DNA of 64,000 bases. It comes from an uncultured bacterium. Lineage in GTDB: Bacteria; Bacteroidota; Bacteroidia; Bacteroidales; Bacteroidaceae. Position 1 is the stretch's first letter. Every line of letters starts with the position of its first letter. The DNA lies in assembly GCA_946546825.1 (NCBI GenBank), contig CAMNOK010000002.1, positions 1-64,000 of the forward strand. The letters are read 5' to 3'. Below are positions 3 to 45,944 of the stretch, piece after piece. Both the position numbers and the translations under genes were made by a program. The notes beneath the pieces are model-generated. The model ran no database searches. It was given only the letters and a program-made list of their open reading frames with translations, and had not been told where the DNA came from.

Positions 3-86
3 TATTTTTACGACTCCGGCTATGCGATGCGCTGCTATGGTACCAGCAAAGCAGGTATTAATAATTTAGGTATCGGGACACTTTGA
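3..86 (+). CDS. C-terminal fragment of an unidentified protein, cut by the window edge
   Basis: An open frame enters from the left edge and stops at TGA 84-86, giving 27 residues that begin YFYDSGYAMRCYGTSKAG. The composition (Tyr, Gly, Cys, no low-complexity bias) looks like real coding sequence, perhaps the end of a secreted or surface protein, but 27 residues are too few to name a family. The last eight codons lie inside the 22-bp repeat register that starts near 61, so the natural C-terminus may have been changed by repeat insertion. Confidence 0.3.
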   Translation, partial: YFYDSGYAMRCYGTSKAGINNLGIGTL

Positions 87-215
87 ACAGGTTATTCGGA
101 CAGTGTGTCCGAGGCATCGGGATAGTGTGTCCGAGGCATCGGGACAAAGTGTCCGGGCCATTGGGACAGAGTGTCCGGGCCATCGGGACAAAGTGTCCGG
201 AGGCCCTCCGGACAC
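61..215. repeat. Tandem array of about seven 22-bp units with internal dyads
   Basis: The heptamer GTGTCCG recurs at 105, 127, 149, 171 and 193, exactly 22 bp apart each time. Two degenerate units precede it in the same register at 61 and 83. Each good unit contains a 19-nt dyad such as TGTCCGGGCCATCGGGACA (172-190), in which TGTCC pairs with GGACA around a central GGCCATCG or GGCATCG. The array begins inside the last codons of the partial gene and continues into noncoding DNA. There are no unique spacers, so it is not CRISPR. Because 22 is not a multiple of three, every frame crosses it without conserved meaning, and spurious ORFs on both strands result. Confidence 0.9.
193..215. repeat. Perfect hairpin formed by the last repeat unit
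   Basis: The final unit of the array changes so that its two 10-nt arms, GTGTCCGGAG (193-202) and CTCCGGACAC (206-215), pair perfectly around a 3-nt loop. No T-run follows, so it is not a standard intrinsic terminator. It may cap the array or act as an RNA 3' structure for the upstream gene. Confidence 0.7.
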
Positions 216-719
216 CTCAGGGACCACAAATAGCTGCCGACGGTCAATAGAAGCCGACGACACTCAGGTAGTGGTCAATCCTGATGGGGTCGTTGTATTC
301 TAATCTGCGGGTGAGGCTTCTGATCCTTCAGCATATTTTTGCACTCACAAAGATACTAAATTTTCGGCCAAAAATCAAGATTTTCGAGCCTTAGAATTGT
401 GTTTTAAGAAATATTAACTCATTTCCTCATAATTTCCTCACACCTCACAAAGCCTTTATTCATCGGCCTTTCAGCTCGTGGAATGAGGAAATGAGGAAAA
501 AACTGAAAATAAAAATTTCTGGTTCGCGCACGCGCGCGAGAGAACTTTTTTTGCCCGGTAAATATCAACGCATTCACAACGAAGCGGAGGAAGAGCTTCC
601 AAAAACTTTAACAAAATTAATAAGCCCTGACTTTTTGCGGTATATTACACTTTTTTTACTAATCCTTTTTCCACATTGCCACTTTGATTTTTCGGATGCC
701 ATGAACTCCTTTTAGGTGT

Positions 720-41594: not shown

Positions 41595-43835
41595 GTGAAA
41601 AGTCTATTGACACTTTTTCGTATAAAGAGTCTGGTTCCGACATCGCTCTCCGCTTTGGCGGTGTGCCTGCTGATGTCAGCTTGTTCGGCCACAAGGTTTG
41701 TGGGCGACGACGGCCTGTTGCTTACCAGTGTGAAGGTAAGCTCAGATACCAAGGATATCAACACGAAATTGTTTGAACCGTATGTCAGACAGAAAGCCAA
41801 CTCTAAATGGTTCTCGCTGTTCAAGATTCCCATGGGTGTCTATGAGCTCTCTGGTCGTGATACTTCACGATGGGTGAACAAAGTCCTGCAGCATATCGGT
41901 GAACAACCGGTGGTCTATGACTCAGTGGCCGCACAACAGTCTTGCCAGAACCTGACCCGGTTGTTGCAGAACATGGGCTATATGAATAGCTCTACAACCA
42001 TCTCGTCGAAGCGTAAGGGTAGGAAGATTCGCCTCAACTACCAGCTACATCCCGGAGAGCCTTATGTCATCAACCTGCTGGAATATGATATACAGGACGA
42101 GGAAATTGGACGGTTGCTGGATGCTAACAACACCAAGAAGACGTCTCGGCTGAAAGAGGGTTCACGCTTCTCTATAGATGCTCTTGATGCAGAGCGAAAA
42201 CGCATAACAAGTGTGCTGCTCGACAATGGCTACTACCGTTTCCACAAAGACTTTATCGCCTTTACGGCCGATTCGTCGGGCGGAGGTAAAGAGGTGAGAC
42301 TGACGCTCCACCTGCTGCCCTATAAGGCTAACAACAACGCGCCGGAAACAGCCCATCCGCGATACAAGGTGCGCCATGTGAACTATCTTCCCGGTAACGA
42401 TGACGGCCACCACCTGCGCCAATCTGTGTTGGAATATAACACCGCCATCCGGCCCGGCGGCTTCTATAGCAGCAGCGACTTGCAGAAGACATACAACAAC
42501 TTTGGACGGCTGCAAGCGGTGAAATACACCAATATCCGCTTTCGTGAAACGGAAGACACGCTCCTCCTGGATGCGAATATACAGCTGACATACAACAAAC
42601 CTTCGACCATCTCGTTTCAACCCGAGGGTACCAACACGTCGGGCGACCTTGGCGCGGCAGCCTCTGTAACCTATGAAAACCGCAACCTCTTCCGCGGCGC
42701 GGAAGTTTTCAGCGTGCAGTTGCGTGGAGCCTTCGAGGCCATCACGGGACTTGAAGGGTATCAGAATGAGGACTACGAAGAATATTCCATAGAGTCGAAG
42801 CTGACGTTCCCGCGCTTTGTGGCTCCGTTTCTGTCATATTCTTTCCGTCGGCGCAGCACGGCCAGGAGTGAGCTCAGCATTGGCTATAACCTGCAAAACC
42901 GGCCAGAGTTCCACCGGAGGGTCTTCTCTACGGCGTGGCGCTACCATTGGTCGGAGCCGAAGCATTATCTCAGCTACCGTTTCGACCTCTTCGACCTGAA
43001 CTACGTCTATATGCCGTGGATCAGTACAACCTTCCGTCATGACTATCTCGACAGCGAACAGAGCCGCAATGCCATCCTGCGCTATAACTATGAAGACATC
43101 TTTATCTTTAAGATTGGTTTTGGCATGGGATATAACGACGGCACACATGTGGCACGACTCAATGTGGAAACGGCAGGCAATGTTCTGCGTGGACTCTCCA
43201 GCCTGATTAAGCCTAAACAGAACAGCGAGGGACAATACACCCTGTTTAATATTGCATACGCGCAATATGTGAGACTGGACCTCGATTTCACCAAGCTCTA
43301 TCGCTTTGACGACCGCAACCTGTTGGCCATGCATGCCGGAATGGGCATTGCCTGTCCCTATGGCAACAGCAAGATTCTGCCGTTTGAGAAACGATACTTC
43401 TCGGGAGGTGCCAACTCTGTCAGGGGATGGAGCGTCAGAGAACTCGGCCCGGGAAAGTTCAAGGGAACGGACGGCCGTATAGACTTCATCAACCAGACAG
43501 GTGACATGAAGCTGGACTTGAACCTGGAGTATCGAACCTTCTTGTTCTGGAAATTCTATGGTGCGGCTTTCATCGATGCAGGTAATATCTGGACCTTGCG
43601 TGAATATAAGGACCAGCCTGGCGGGCTCTTCAAGTTTAATGAATTCTACAAACAGATAGCCGTGGGCTACGGCATGGGGCTCCGCCTGAATTTCGATTAC
43701 TTCATCATCCGTATGGATGCTGGCATGAAGGCTATCAACCCGGCTTATGAGACTCATCGCCAGCATTATCCTATCACCCGTCACAACATGGGGCGCGATT
43801 TTTCTTTCCACTTTGCAGTAGGTCTTCCGTTCTGA
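41595..43835 (+). CDS. BamA/TamA-family outer-membrane assembly protein
   Basis: The 746-aa protein begins at GTG (MKSLLTLFRIKSLV...). It has a lipoprotein-like signal with LMSAC (Cys at residue 30), POTRA-like repeats (about 40-330) and a C-terminal Omp85 barrel. The barrel includes RYFSGGANSVRGWSVRELGPG, the lid-loop VRGW/Y-type motif near residue 610, and ends in a hydrophobic-aromatic strand FHFAVGLPF. Omp85 proteins insert or export outer-membrane or surface proteins; this lipid-anchored variant is typical of Bacteroidetes. No ATG is available before the signal sequence. A repeat array begins about 25 nt after the stop. Confidence 0.88.
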   Translation: MKSLLTLFRIKSLVPTSLSALAVCLLMSACSATRFVGDDGLLLTSVKVSSDTKDINTKLFEPYVRQKANSKWFSLFKIPMGVYELSGRDTSRWVNKVLQHIGEQPVVYDSVAAQQSCQNLTRLLQNMGYMNSSTTISSKRKGRKIRLNYQLHPGEPYVINLLEYDIQDEEIGRLLDANNTKKTSRLKEGSRFSIDALDAERKRITSVLLDNGYYRFHKDFIAFTADSSGGGKEVRLTLHLLPYKANNNAPETAHPRYKVRHVNYLPGNDDGHHLRQSVLEYNTAIRPGGFYSSSDLQKTYNNFGRLQAVKYTNIRFRETEDTLLLDANIQLTYNKPSTISFQPEGTNTSGDLGAAASVTYENRNLFRGAEVFSVQLRGAFEAITGLEGYQNEDYEEYSIESKLTFPRFVAPFLSYSFRRRSTARSELSIGYNLQNRPEFHRRVFSTAWRYHWSEPKHYLSYRFDLFDLNYVYMPWISTTFRHDYLDSEQSRNAILRYNYEDIFIFKIGFGMGYNDGTHVARLNVETAGNVLRGLSSLIKPKQNSEGQYTLFNIAYAQYVRLDLDFTKLYRFDDRNLLAMHAGMGIACPYGNSKILPFEKRYFSGGANSVRGWSVRELGPGKFKGTDGRIDFINQTGDMKLDLNLEYRTFLFWKFYGAAFIDAGNIWTLREYKDQPGGLFKFNEFYKQIAVGYGMGLRLNFDYFIIRMDAGMKAINPAYETHRQHYPITRHNMGRDFSFHFAVGLPF

Positions 43836-43860
43836 ATACTTCTCCTGGTCTATGGCTTGC

Positions 43861-44113
43861 TCTGCCTCCCAATGGATATCCTTTCTGTTTCCTAATGGAT
43901 ACTTTCTGCCTCCCAATGGATATCCTTTCTGCCTCCCAATGGATATCCTTTCTGTTTCCTAATGGATATCCTTTCTGCCTCCAAGGGCTTCTCTCTTAGA
44001 CTCCAACAGGTCGGTCAATGAGATGCCAAGCGGCCATCGTTTGGCCCCCAAGAGGCCATCGTTTGGACTCCAAGAGGACAGCTTTTGGGAGGCAAACCGA
44101 CCGACAACTCATA
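43861..44113. repeat. Heterogeneous array of about eleven 21-23-bp units
   Basis: Six units starting TCTG occur at 43861, 43884, 43905, 43928, 43951 and 43974 (steps 23, 21, 23, 23, 23). They alternate between a CCTCCCAATGG form and a TTTCCTAATGG form, each followed by ATATCC. The register continues through CCAAG/CCAAC anchors at 43981, 44003, 44026, 44048 and 44070 (steps 22, 23, 22, 22). The later units change to 19-nt dyads, such as CCAAGAGGCCATCGTTTGG (44048-44066). There are no unique spacers and no gene. It fills the space after the TamA-like gene. Confidence 0.9.
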
Positions 44114-44170
44114 CCCTAACCAATCGACTGATTGTCCTCTAAAAGACCGAGCGTTCAGACGCTAAGAGAT

Positions 44171-44217
44171 ATACCAATGAGACCCCAAGTGGTGGTCACT
44201 TGAGGTCTCATCGGTAT
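44171..44217 (-). terminator. Large hairpin 3' of the AspT/YidE-type transporter gene
   Basis: Arms of 21 nt (44171-44191 and 44197-44217) pair around a 5-nt loop with two mismatches. In plus-strand RNA these are A-C mismatches; in minus-strand RNA they become G-U pairs, so the stem is fully paired only in the transporter transcript, whose stop is 33 nt away. No U-run follows, so it may stabilise the 3' end rather than terminate alone. Confidence 0.6.
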
Positions 44218-44249: not shown

Positions 44250-45944
44250 TCAGGCTCCACAACAGAACAAGACAATCAGTTGGGCTGTGAAAATGCGGAG
44301 GAACATGCTCAGCGGATATACCGTAGAGTAGCCGATAGCCGGAGCCTCCTTGGTGCAGGATGCGTTGGCGTAGGCCAGTGCGGGCGGGTCGGTATAGGTT
44401 CCAGCCAACATACCCATAATCGTAAAGTAGTTGAACTTATATTTCAGTCGGGCAATGGTTCCGATAATCAGGATGGGGATGATGGTAATGAGGAAACCCG
44501 TATAGACATACTTGATGCCGTCTCCGGCAATCACGGTATCCCAGAATCCGGCACCTGCCTTGATGCCCACGCTGGCCAGGAAGAGCACAAGTCCTATCTC
44601 GCGCAGCATCATGTTGGCCGAAGTCGTGGTGTAGGTAACGAGTTTCATGCGGTAGCCAAAGCGTCCGATGAGGATGGCTATGATGAGCGGACCGCCTGCT
44701 ATACCAAGCTTCAGCGGAACAGGCATGCCGGGAATGGCGATGGGCAGGCTTCCAAACAAGATTCCCACAATGATGCCGATGAAGATGGTGGCGATGTTGG
44801 GAGCATTCAGACGCTTCACCGAGTTGCCCAGCAGCTCGGCCACGCGGTTCACGTTTTCCTCAGCGCCGACCACCATGATCTTGTCTCCTACATGGAAGTG
44901 GTGGTTGCGTGAAGCGAAGAGGTCGATGCCTTGGCGGGTAATACGGGTGATATTTACGCCATAGACACTGGAGAAATGCATCTTGCCCAGCGTCTTTCCG
45001 TTCATGCGGGGGTTGGTCACAACGACACGCTTCGATATCATGGGCTGCTTTTCTTCCTCAATGCCCCAGTCTGTTTCGTCTCTGGGCCCGATGAAAGCCT
45101 GTATGGCGTCGGCATCAGCTTCAGCGCAGACGATGAGTACCTTGTCGTTGAGTGAGAGCACTGTGTCGCGATTGGGGACGAGTACCTGACCATCATGGAG
45201 AATGCGGGTGCACACAATGTCACGGTTCAGGAACTCTGAAATCTGCATCAGTGTGCGACCTGCTATAAATTCGTTGGTCACCATCAGGTGTAGCTGGTAG
45301 GGCTTGGCGTGAGGATTCTGGGCCTCATCCTCTTGCAGTTGCATCTCCTCTTTCTCCAAGCTGACGCGGCAGATATAGCGCACTGCGATAGTGGCACCAA
45401 TGATGCCGACAACTCCCAGTGGGTAGGCACAGGCATAGCCAGAGGCTATCTGTGGCACTTCGCCACTGGTGAAGACGGAGCTCAGGGCTTCGTTGGCAGC
45501 TCCAAGGCCCGGCGTGTTGGTCACGGCGCCATAGAGGGTGCCCACCATCATGGGGAGGTTCACGGGGTTGGTGGTGTCGAAGAACAGGTAGTAGCATCCA
45601 AACATCACGGCGATGTTCAGCAGGATGGCCGACGTAGAGAGCAGGTTCAGCGTGACGCCGCCCTTGCGAAAGCTCTCAAAGAAGCCCGGTCCCACCTGCA
45701 GACCGATGCAGAAAACAAAGAGAATCAATCCGAAGTCCTGTATGAAAGTCAGAATATCGGTTGGTCCGGTAAATCCTACATGTCCTGCCAAGATACCGGC
45801 AAAGAGCACGAAGGTCACACCGAGTGAGATGCCGAAAACCTTGATTTTGCCCAGCAGCACACCGACGGAGATAACGATGGCGTAGAGCAGAACAATGTGG
45901 GCAACCGACTCGTTGTTAGTAAAGAGGTTGATAATCCAATCCAT
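44250..45944 (-). CDS. AspT/YidE-type membrane transporter with two RCK_C (TrkA-C) domains
   Basis: The 564-aa protein has five membrane helices (about 15-190), two soluble TrkA-C modules (about 205-290, [35 protein letters not shown]; about 295-375, [30 protein letters not shown]), and a second helix block (about 385-564) ending in [14 protein letters not shown]. That is the aspartate:alanine exchanger/YidE architecture. The substrate is unknown; an amino or dicarboxylic acid is likely. A -7 element TACCTTTG (minus strand, 45975-45968) lies 23 nt before the start. Confidence 0.88.

Follow-up and report, generated by a model that had tools for sequence, protein, structure and literature searches.

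The question raised by this locus is whether two repeat arrays lying far apart in the same window (the whole stretch of 64,000 nucleotides analysed here, from an uncultured member of the Bacteroidaceae) belong to one modular repeat family, in which the two arms of the unit go on pairing with each other while their sequence changes, and, if so, what kind of element such a family represents. The units, the coordinates, the 8-base core and the complementary arms on which the initial annotation based this idea were all found in the sequence as quoted. The array-1 unit TGTCCGGGCCATCGGGACA is present, letter for letter, at positions 172-190, the array-2 unit CCAAGAGGCCATCGTTTGG at 44048-44066, and a one-base variant of the latter, CCAAGCGGCCATCGTTTGG, at 44026-44044; Tandem Repeats Finder assigned a period of 22 nt to both arrays (98-204 and 44026-44088, respectively). 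The features of the two regions are listed in Table 1.

Table 1. Repeats, stem-loops and flanking genes of the two array regions (window positions).
Feature	Position	Strand	Remarks
Array 1, one copy of the dispersed family-1 element	69..214	+	about six 22-nt units, hairpin at the end
Terminal hairpin TGTCCGGAG-GCC-CTCCGGACA	194..214	+	9-bp stem, 3-nt loop
Tail A	244..324	-	decayed 3'-terminal part of a gene of the DUF6078 type (IRSLTRRLEYNDPIRIDHYLSVVGFY*); common to other family-1 copies
Left flanking gene, Omp85 family with POTRA match	41595..43835	+	
Degenerate 22/23-nt-period array	43860..44195		about 15 units; outer limits approximate
Left part of the degenerate array	43861..43982		23-nt units TCTGCCTCCCAATGGATATCCTT (Tandem Repeats Finder)
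Array 2, best-preserved 22-nt units	44026..44088		CCAAGAGG-CCA-TCGTTTGG-ACT
Terminator-like stem-loop	44172..44216	-	20 counted pairs, right end of the array
Right flanking gene, Asp-Al_Ex permease with TrkA_C	44250..45944	-	

The 8-mer representing the common core, GGCCATCG, occurs 12 times in the window versus 1.8 expected, and nine of these copies lie outside the arrays; being so frequent a word, it constitutes weak evidence by itself. Several units of 43981-44100 nonetheless share 8-mers with family-1 units in register, GGCCATCG in two of them and AACAGGTC in the preceding one. Of 3000 within-unit shuffles, 2 gave as many as three such places, and of about 2970 random pieces of the window none did; the p value is optimistic, the test having been run once the match had been noticed. 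Among 84 other arrays (a set leaving out family 1 and the G014 and G097 loci), the only one to reach three places is the TGTCCGG array of the congener G055 (locus L072). Arrays 1 and 2 do share in-register sequence beyond chance. That they are unrelated, ordinary tandem repeats, with a core and a pairing that match by accident, is very improbable: the core is indeed a common word in the window, and the complementarity of the arms, tested for each array by column permutation, is marginal (p ~0.03 for array 1 and ~0.07 for array 2), but both the rarity of the in-register sharing and the genus-wide peak of 22-nt arrays with dyads, described below, speak against it.

The picture of two neat arrays is not supported, array 2 being the part of a longer degenerate array that has kept its sequence best. 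Self-identity at lags 22-23 is 0.42-0.45 in 43983-44170 (background about 0.25), so that array 2 and the 23-nt array on its left are parts of one degenerate array. This takes up most of the gap between the Omp85 gene and the Asp-Al_Ex permease gene, which lie 3' end to 3' end and which the stem-loop at 44172-44216 probably serves as a shared terminator. As single-stranded DNA, the unit at 44025-44045 forms a fold of -5.9 kcal/mol whose stem is 8 bp long; no comparable fold was obtained for the exact unit at 44048-44066 (-0.9 kcal/mol), and pairing is poor in the left part of the array. The search for the array-2 unit elsewhere in its own genome retrieved nothing above the control level. A related degenerate array is located on contig C13 of the same genome, and there a change in one arm is matched by a change in the arm on the other side of the 3-nt spacer (p 0.01), the arm pairs being TTCAG/CTGAG, TTTGG/CCAAG, CTCAG/CTGAG and CTTAG/CTAAG. 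The same analysis of the window array gave no significant result (p 0.38), with an automatic register that is wrong for at least one unit.

Array 1 has a different history. The family-1 element, to which it belongs, is present about 14 times in the window's own genome (G000, a 62% complete assembly of 84 contigs); this element is made of contiguous tandem repeats of period 22 nt, has many intergenic copies and is specific to the species. In array 1, units of the TGAACAGGTTATTC type precede those of the TGTCCGGGCCATCG type, and most copies follow an order of this kind, with GGACACTTTGAACAGGTCATC-type units first, GGACAGAGTGTCCGGGCCATC next and a strong hairpin last (TGTCCGGAGGCCCTCCGGACA or its GGACCCCCTTC version). 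The terminal hairpin of array 1, which closes many of the copies, has a single-stranded DNA fold of -9.2 kcal/mol (z -4.6). Moreover, two types of shared tail follow many copies, some others having neither, and the left flanks are unrelated to one another. The order of the unit types and the sharing of the tails imply that whole family-1 arrays were copied; for array 1, spread through copying is supported and local homogenisation is not.

Further arrays in related genomes had been named beforehand as what the idea of a repeat family depended upon, and related arrays were found in three congeners. Searched for by sequence, family 1 itself turned up in 3 of 150 congeneric genomes; the array-1 unit also gave four matches in named genomes, which belong to unrelated taxa and were taken as chance. 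Contig C14 carries an array between an intact DUF6078 gene and a VapE-like gene; the congener G014 has the same arrangement, and the two align continuously over 2 kb (74%). At least one array (L010 984-1090 and its ortholog L039 ~380-500, with the DUF6078 and VapE-like genes on either side in the two species) has thus probably been inherited at the same site from before the divergence of the two species. DUF6078 as a general partner gene was discarded, as it was not found in four array-bearing genomes.

Another explanation is that MITE-like mobile elements carry the arrays, as cargo or as internal parts, the repeat itself having no role. Flanks or tails around the arrays are shared in G000, G016 and G055, and BrickBuilt, the nearest described element (see below), has been described as a MITE (PMC4596501). 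However, the search for Y1/RAYT genes (PF01797) was negative in G003, G196 and the incomplete G000, all of them array-bearing; the left flanks of family 1 are unrelated to one another, and a shared tail is missing from some copies; and mobility of this kind would account for the spread of the arrays, not for their fixed period or their dyad. We consider this explanation rather unlikely.

The period itself proved to be a property of the genus. In seven congeneric genomes (1.61 Mb: 400 kb each of G055 and G016, 380 kb of the window's own genome, the window, and smaller samples of the four congeners G003, G004, G010 and G001), autocorrelation disclosed 71 tandem arrays at lag 22, the other lags from 14 to 40 having 3.6 each on average, and all seven genomes surveyed harbor 22-nt arrays. 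A sister genus of the same family (G196, 100 kb) has four arrays at lag 22 against 0.04, while seven genomes from other families of the order contain together a single one in 660 kb, and none was found in 50 kb of E. coli. The units themselves differ from species to species, e.g., GTAATTTG-agt-CANATTAC in G016, GCAAAATG-ccg-CATATTGC in G004, CCTTTTAC-aat-GTAAAAGA in G010, GTAATCAG-gnc-CTAATTAC in G001, TGTCCGAA-gcc-TTCGGACA in G097 and TGTCCGGG-cca-TCCGGACA in G000, and roughly a dozen unit families were counted by eye. Most arrays have unrelated cores, so the core shared by arrays 1 and 2 is not a general feature. These arrays represent a large class of non-coding intergenic repeats in the genus, whose unit is nearly always 22 nt long and usually self-complementary; the unit sequence is tied to the species or the repeat family, and the period and the dyad are common to the class.

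Some loci combine several units. Within one array of G055 (L045 ~1400-1560, contig C13), the arms change from GAGTAC/GTACTC to TGTCC/GGACA, and the core changes with them from GGAGGCT to GGAGCCT. At L166 114-442 (G000, contig C8), two distinct 22-nt units, CAATATAATTTATTTTACTTTG and TAAAGGGATAGCTTTCTGCAGA, are joined in phase in one array, and in G055 one composite 22-nt array with a fixed internal order recurs at several loci (L056, L063 and L065), followed in the same gaps by AACTATTAACAT palindromes, which probably constitute a second repeat family.

The self-complementarity of the arms was checked on the whole set by column permutation, re-optimising the axis. A dyad at p<=0.01 was found in 46 of the 92 22-nt arrays (63 at p<=0.05), and in 7 of 42 arrays of other periods (14 at p<=0.05); arrays of one species are often relatives, and the figures are therefore not independent of one another. 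The axis falls on a base in 61 of the 63 arrays with a dyad (null 56%), so both loops have an odd length; nearly every significant array has its dyad centres at a distance of 11 bp, and complementarity has its minimum near the two loops. This corresponds to an 8-3-8-3 layout, in which 8-nt arms with 3-nt loops describe the units better than the 5-nt arms around a 9-nt core previously suggested, and in which the same arms can pair either across the core or across the 3-nt spacer. Units of other species, too, fold as single-stranded DNA hairpins with an 8-bp stem and a 3-nt loop. The paired layout is kept while the arms differ, the window arrays being only marginal when taken singly. Neither of the two refuting outcomes named in the initial annotation, a lack of further arrays in related genomes and arm pairing no better than in shuffled units, was obtained. 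The pairing of changing arms is maintained between arrays and only weakly from unit to unit inside them: when the pairing centre is rechosen for each permutation, the compensation within arrays amounts to z ~2 overall and 3.4 in the window's own genome, the C13 array being a case in which covariation is seen. A first value of z 7.7, obtained by picking the better pairing centre from the same data, was discarded.

Could the arrays act as RNA, i.e., as rows of hairpins in transcribed 3' UTRs stopping transcription or protecting messages, as has been suggested for REP elements? Array 2 is placed where two convergent genes end, next to the terminator-like stem; folded as RNA, the gap is more stable than shuffled sequences (z -4.4 and -5.6, to which the terminator stem contributes); and 22 nt corresponds to two turns of an A-form helix. 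Nevertheless, no Rfam match at the gathering score was found within the window, and the arrays, nearly all intergenic, occur between genes of every orientation, divergent ones included, with frequencies near background (orientations from a simple home-made gene caller), which led us to discard a placement at 3' ends only. Furthermore, G-T and A-C mismatches on the gene-sense strand are equally frequent (321 to 322), giving no signal of RNA-sense selection, and three-base loops suit hairpins of single-stranded DNA and are atypical of stable RNA hairpins. A function as RNA thus appears quite improbable.

The lack of any RNA-strand signature would also fit the main rival, less unlikely than the RNA and mobile-element readings and still doubtful, according to which the arrays are platforms for a dimeric DNA-binding or nucleoid protein, or for gyrase (as for BIMEs), with a loose or co-evolving preference. 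Dyad centres every 11 bp, about one helical turn, would place dimers on one face of the DNA, and the period is fixed across unrelated sequences; yet no common sequence to be recognised exists between species, the units are strongly degenerate, and the arms can change within one array, as in L045.

The equality of G-T and A-C mismatches, the presence of arrays in every orientation and the three-base loops favour hairpins at the DNA level. To the following reading we assign a probability of about one half: the arrays would be DNA-level, largely selfish, hairpin-forming intergenic minisatellites, similar to BrickBuilt and REP, spread by slippage and copying. With 8-nt arms alternating with 3-nt loops, a single DNA strand could fold into a row of small hairpins; the hairpin-forming unit may stall or slip in replication, the duplication step being one hairpin plus its linker (22 nt); and whole arrays would be copied into new intergenic sites, at times with flanking DNA, and then decay. 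The fixed period, the dyad, the intergenic placement, the copying of family 1 and the inheritance at one orthologous site belong to the direct observations; extrusion of the hairpins, slippage as the generator and the absence of a function for the host are presumed. The weak unit-by-unit covariation fits decay after expansion. Array 2 weighs against this reading, given its marginal dyad and the poorly pairing left part. Moreover, slippage itself was not observed in the material covered (one genome per species); alone, it requires no self-complementarity and explains neither the exact 22-nt unit nor the absence of the arrays from other families of the order. More tentatively, a period-locked generator (an enzyme or a replication feature) present in the family might make exact 22-nt arrays from any self-complementary sequence, in which case the class would be defined by its geometry (8-3-8-3) and not by its sequence.

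The nearest described element in the literature covered is BrickBuilt of Porphyromonas gingivalis, which the arrays resemble in their organisation: it consists of 23-nt units with predicted stem-loops, in about 19 intergenic copies, has a leader and a tail, and shows bidirectional promoter activity (PMC4596501). Like it, the arrays of the genus are made of contiguous tandem units (22 instead of 23 nt), have predicted stem-loops and have species-restricted sequences; family 1 counts about 14 copies versus about 19, and many of these have one of two shared tails, which may correspond to the tail of BrickBuilt, next to left flanks that are unrelated. BrickBuilt, however, is one sequence family in one species, whereas many unrelated units share one period here, and no terminal inverted repeats were seen by eye in the oriented family-1 flanks. 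With REP and BIME elements (GTAG-/CGTC-tagged palindromes, PMC3733652), the class has in common short extragenic palindromes in high copy number, often clustered; it differs in its contiguous arrays of exact period, in a sequence that changes between species and, judging by G003, G196 and the incomplete G000, in the lack of a general link to a Y1/RAYT transposase. CRISPR arrays also have a regular period and partly palindromic repeats, but here the units are directly adjacent, with only 3-nt linkers and no unique spacers, degenerate, and present at many loci per genome. Literature searches for such a class retrieved nothing directly relevant besides the BrickBuilt and REP papers, and those for 22-bp repeats in Prevotella found nothing.

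Should the 22-nt period and the dyad hold family-wide, short bacterial repeats could be defined by geometry rather than by sequence, and what sets the unit length of a minisatellite in bacteria would become directly testable. Sequence searches miss repeats of this type, as shown by family 1, found in 3 of 150 congeners, versus the 22-nt arrays, found in all seven genomes of the genus surveyed for period. The arrays may also interrupt assemblies, several of them being situated at contig ends or close by. Lastly, other tandem repeats lie close to two of the arrays of the window's own genome, i.e., a long TCGTTA/TCGTTG hexamer repeat about 100 nt past the C13 array (L027 1800-1950) and a 33-nt purine-rich repeat near a family-1 array on contig C69 (L017 3688-3800).
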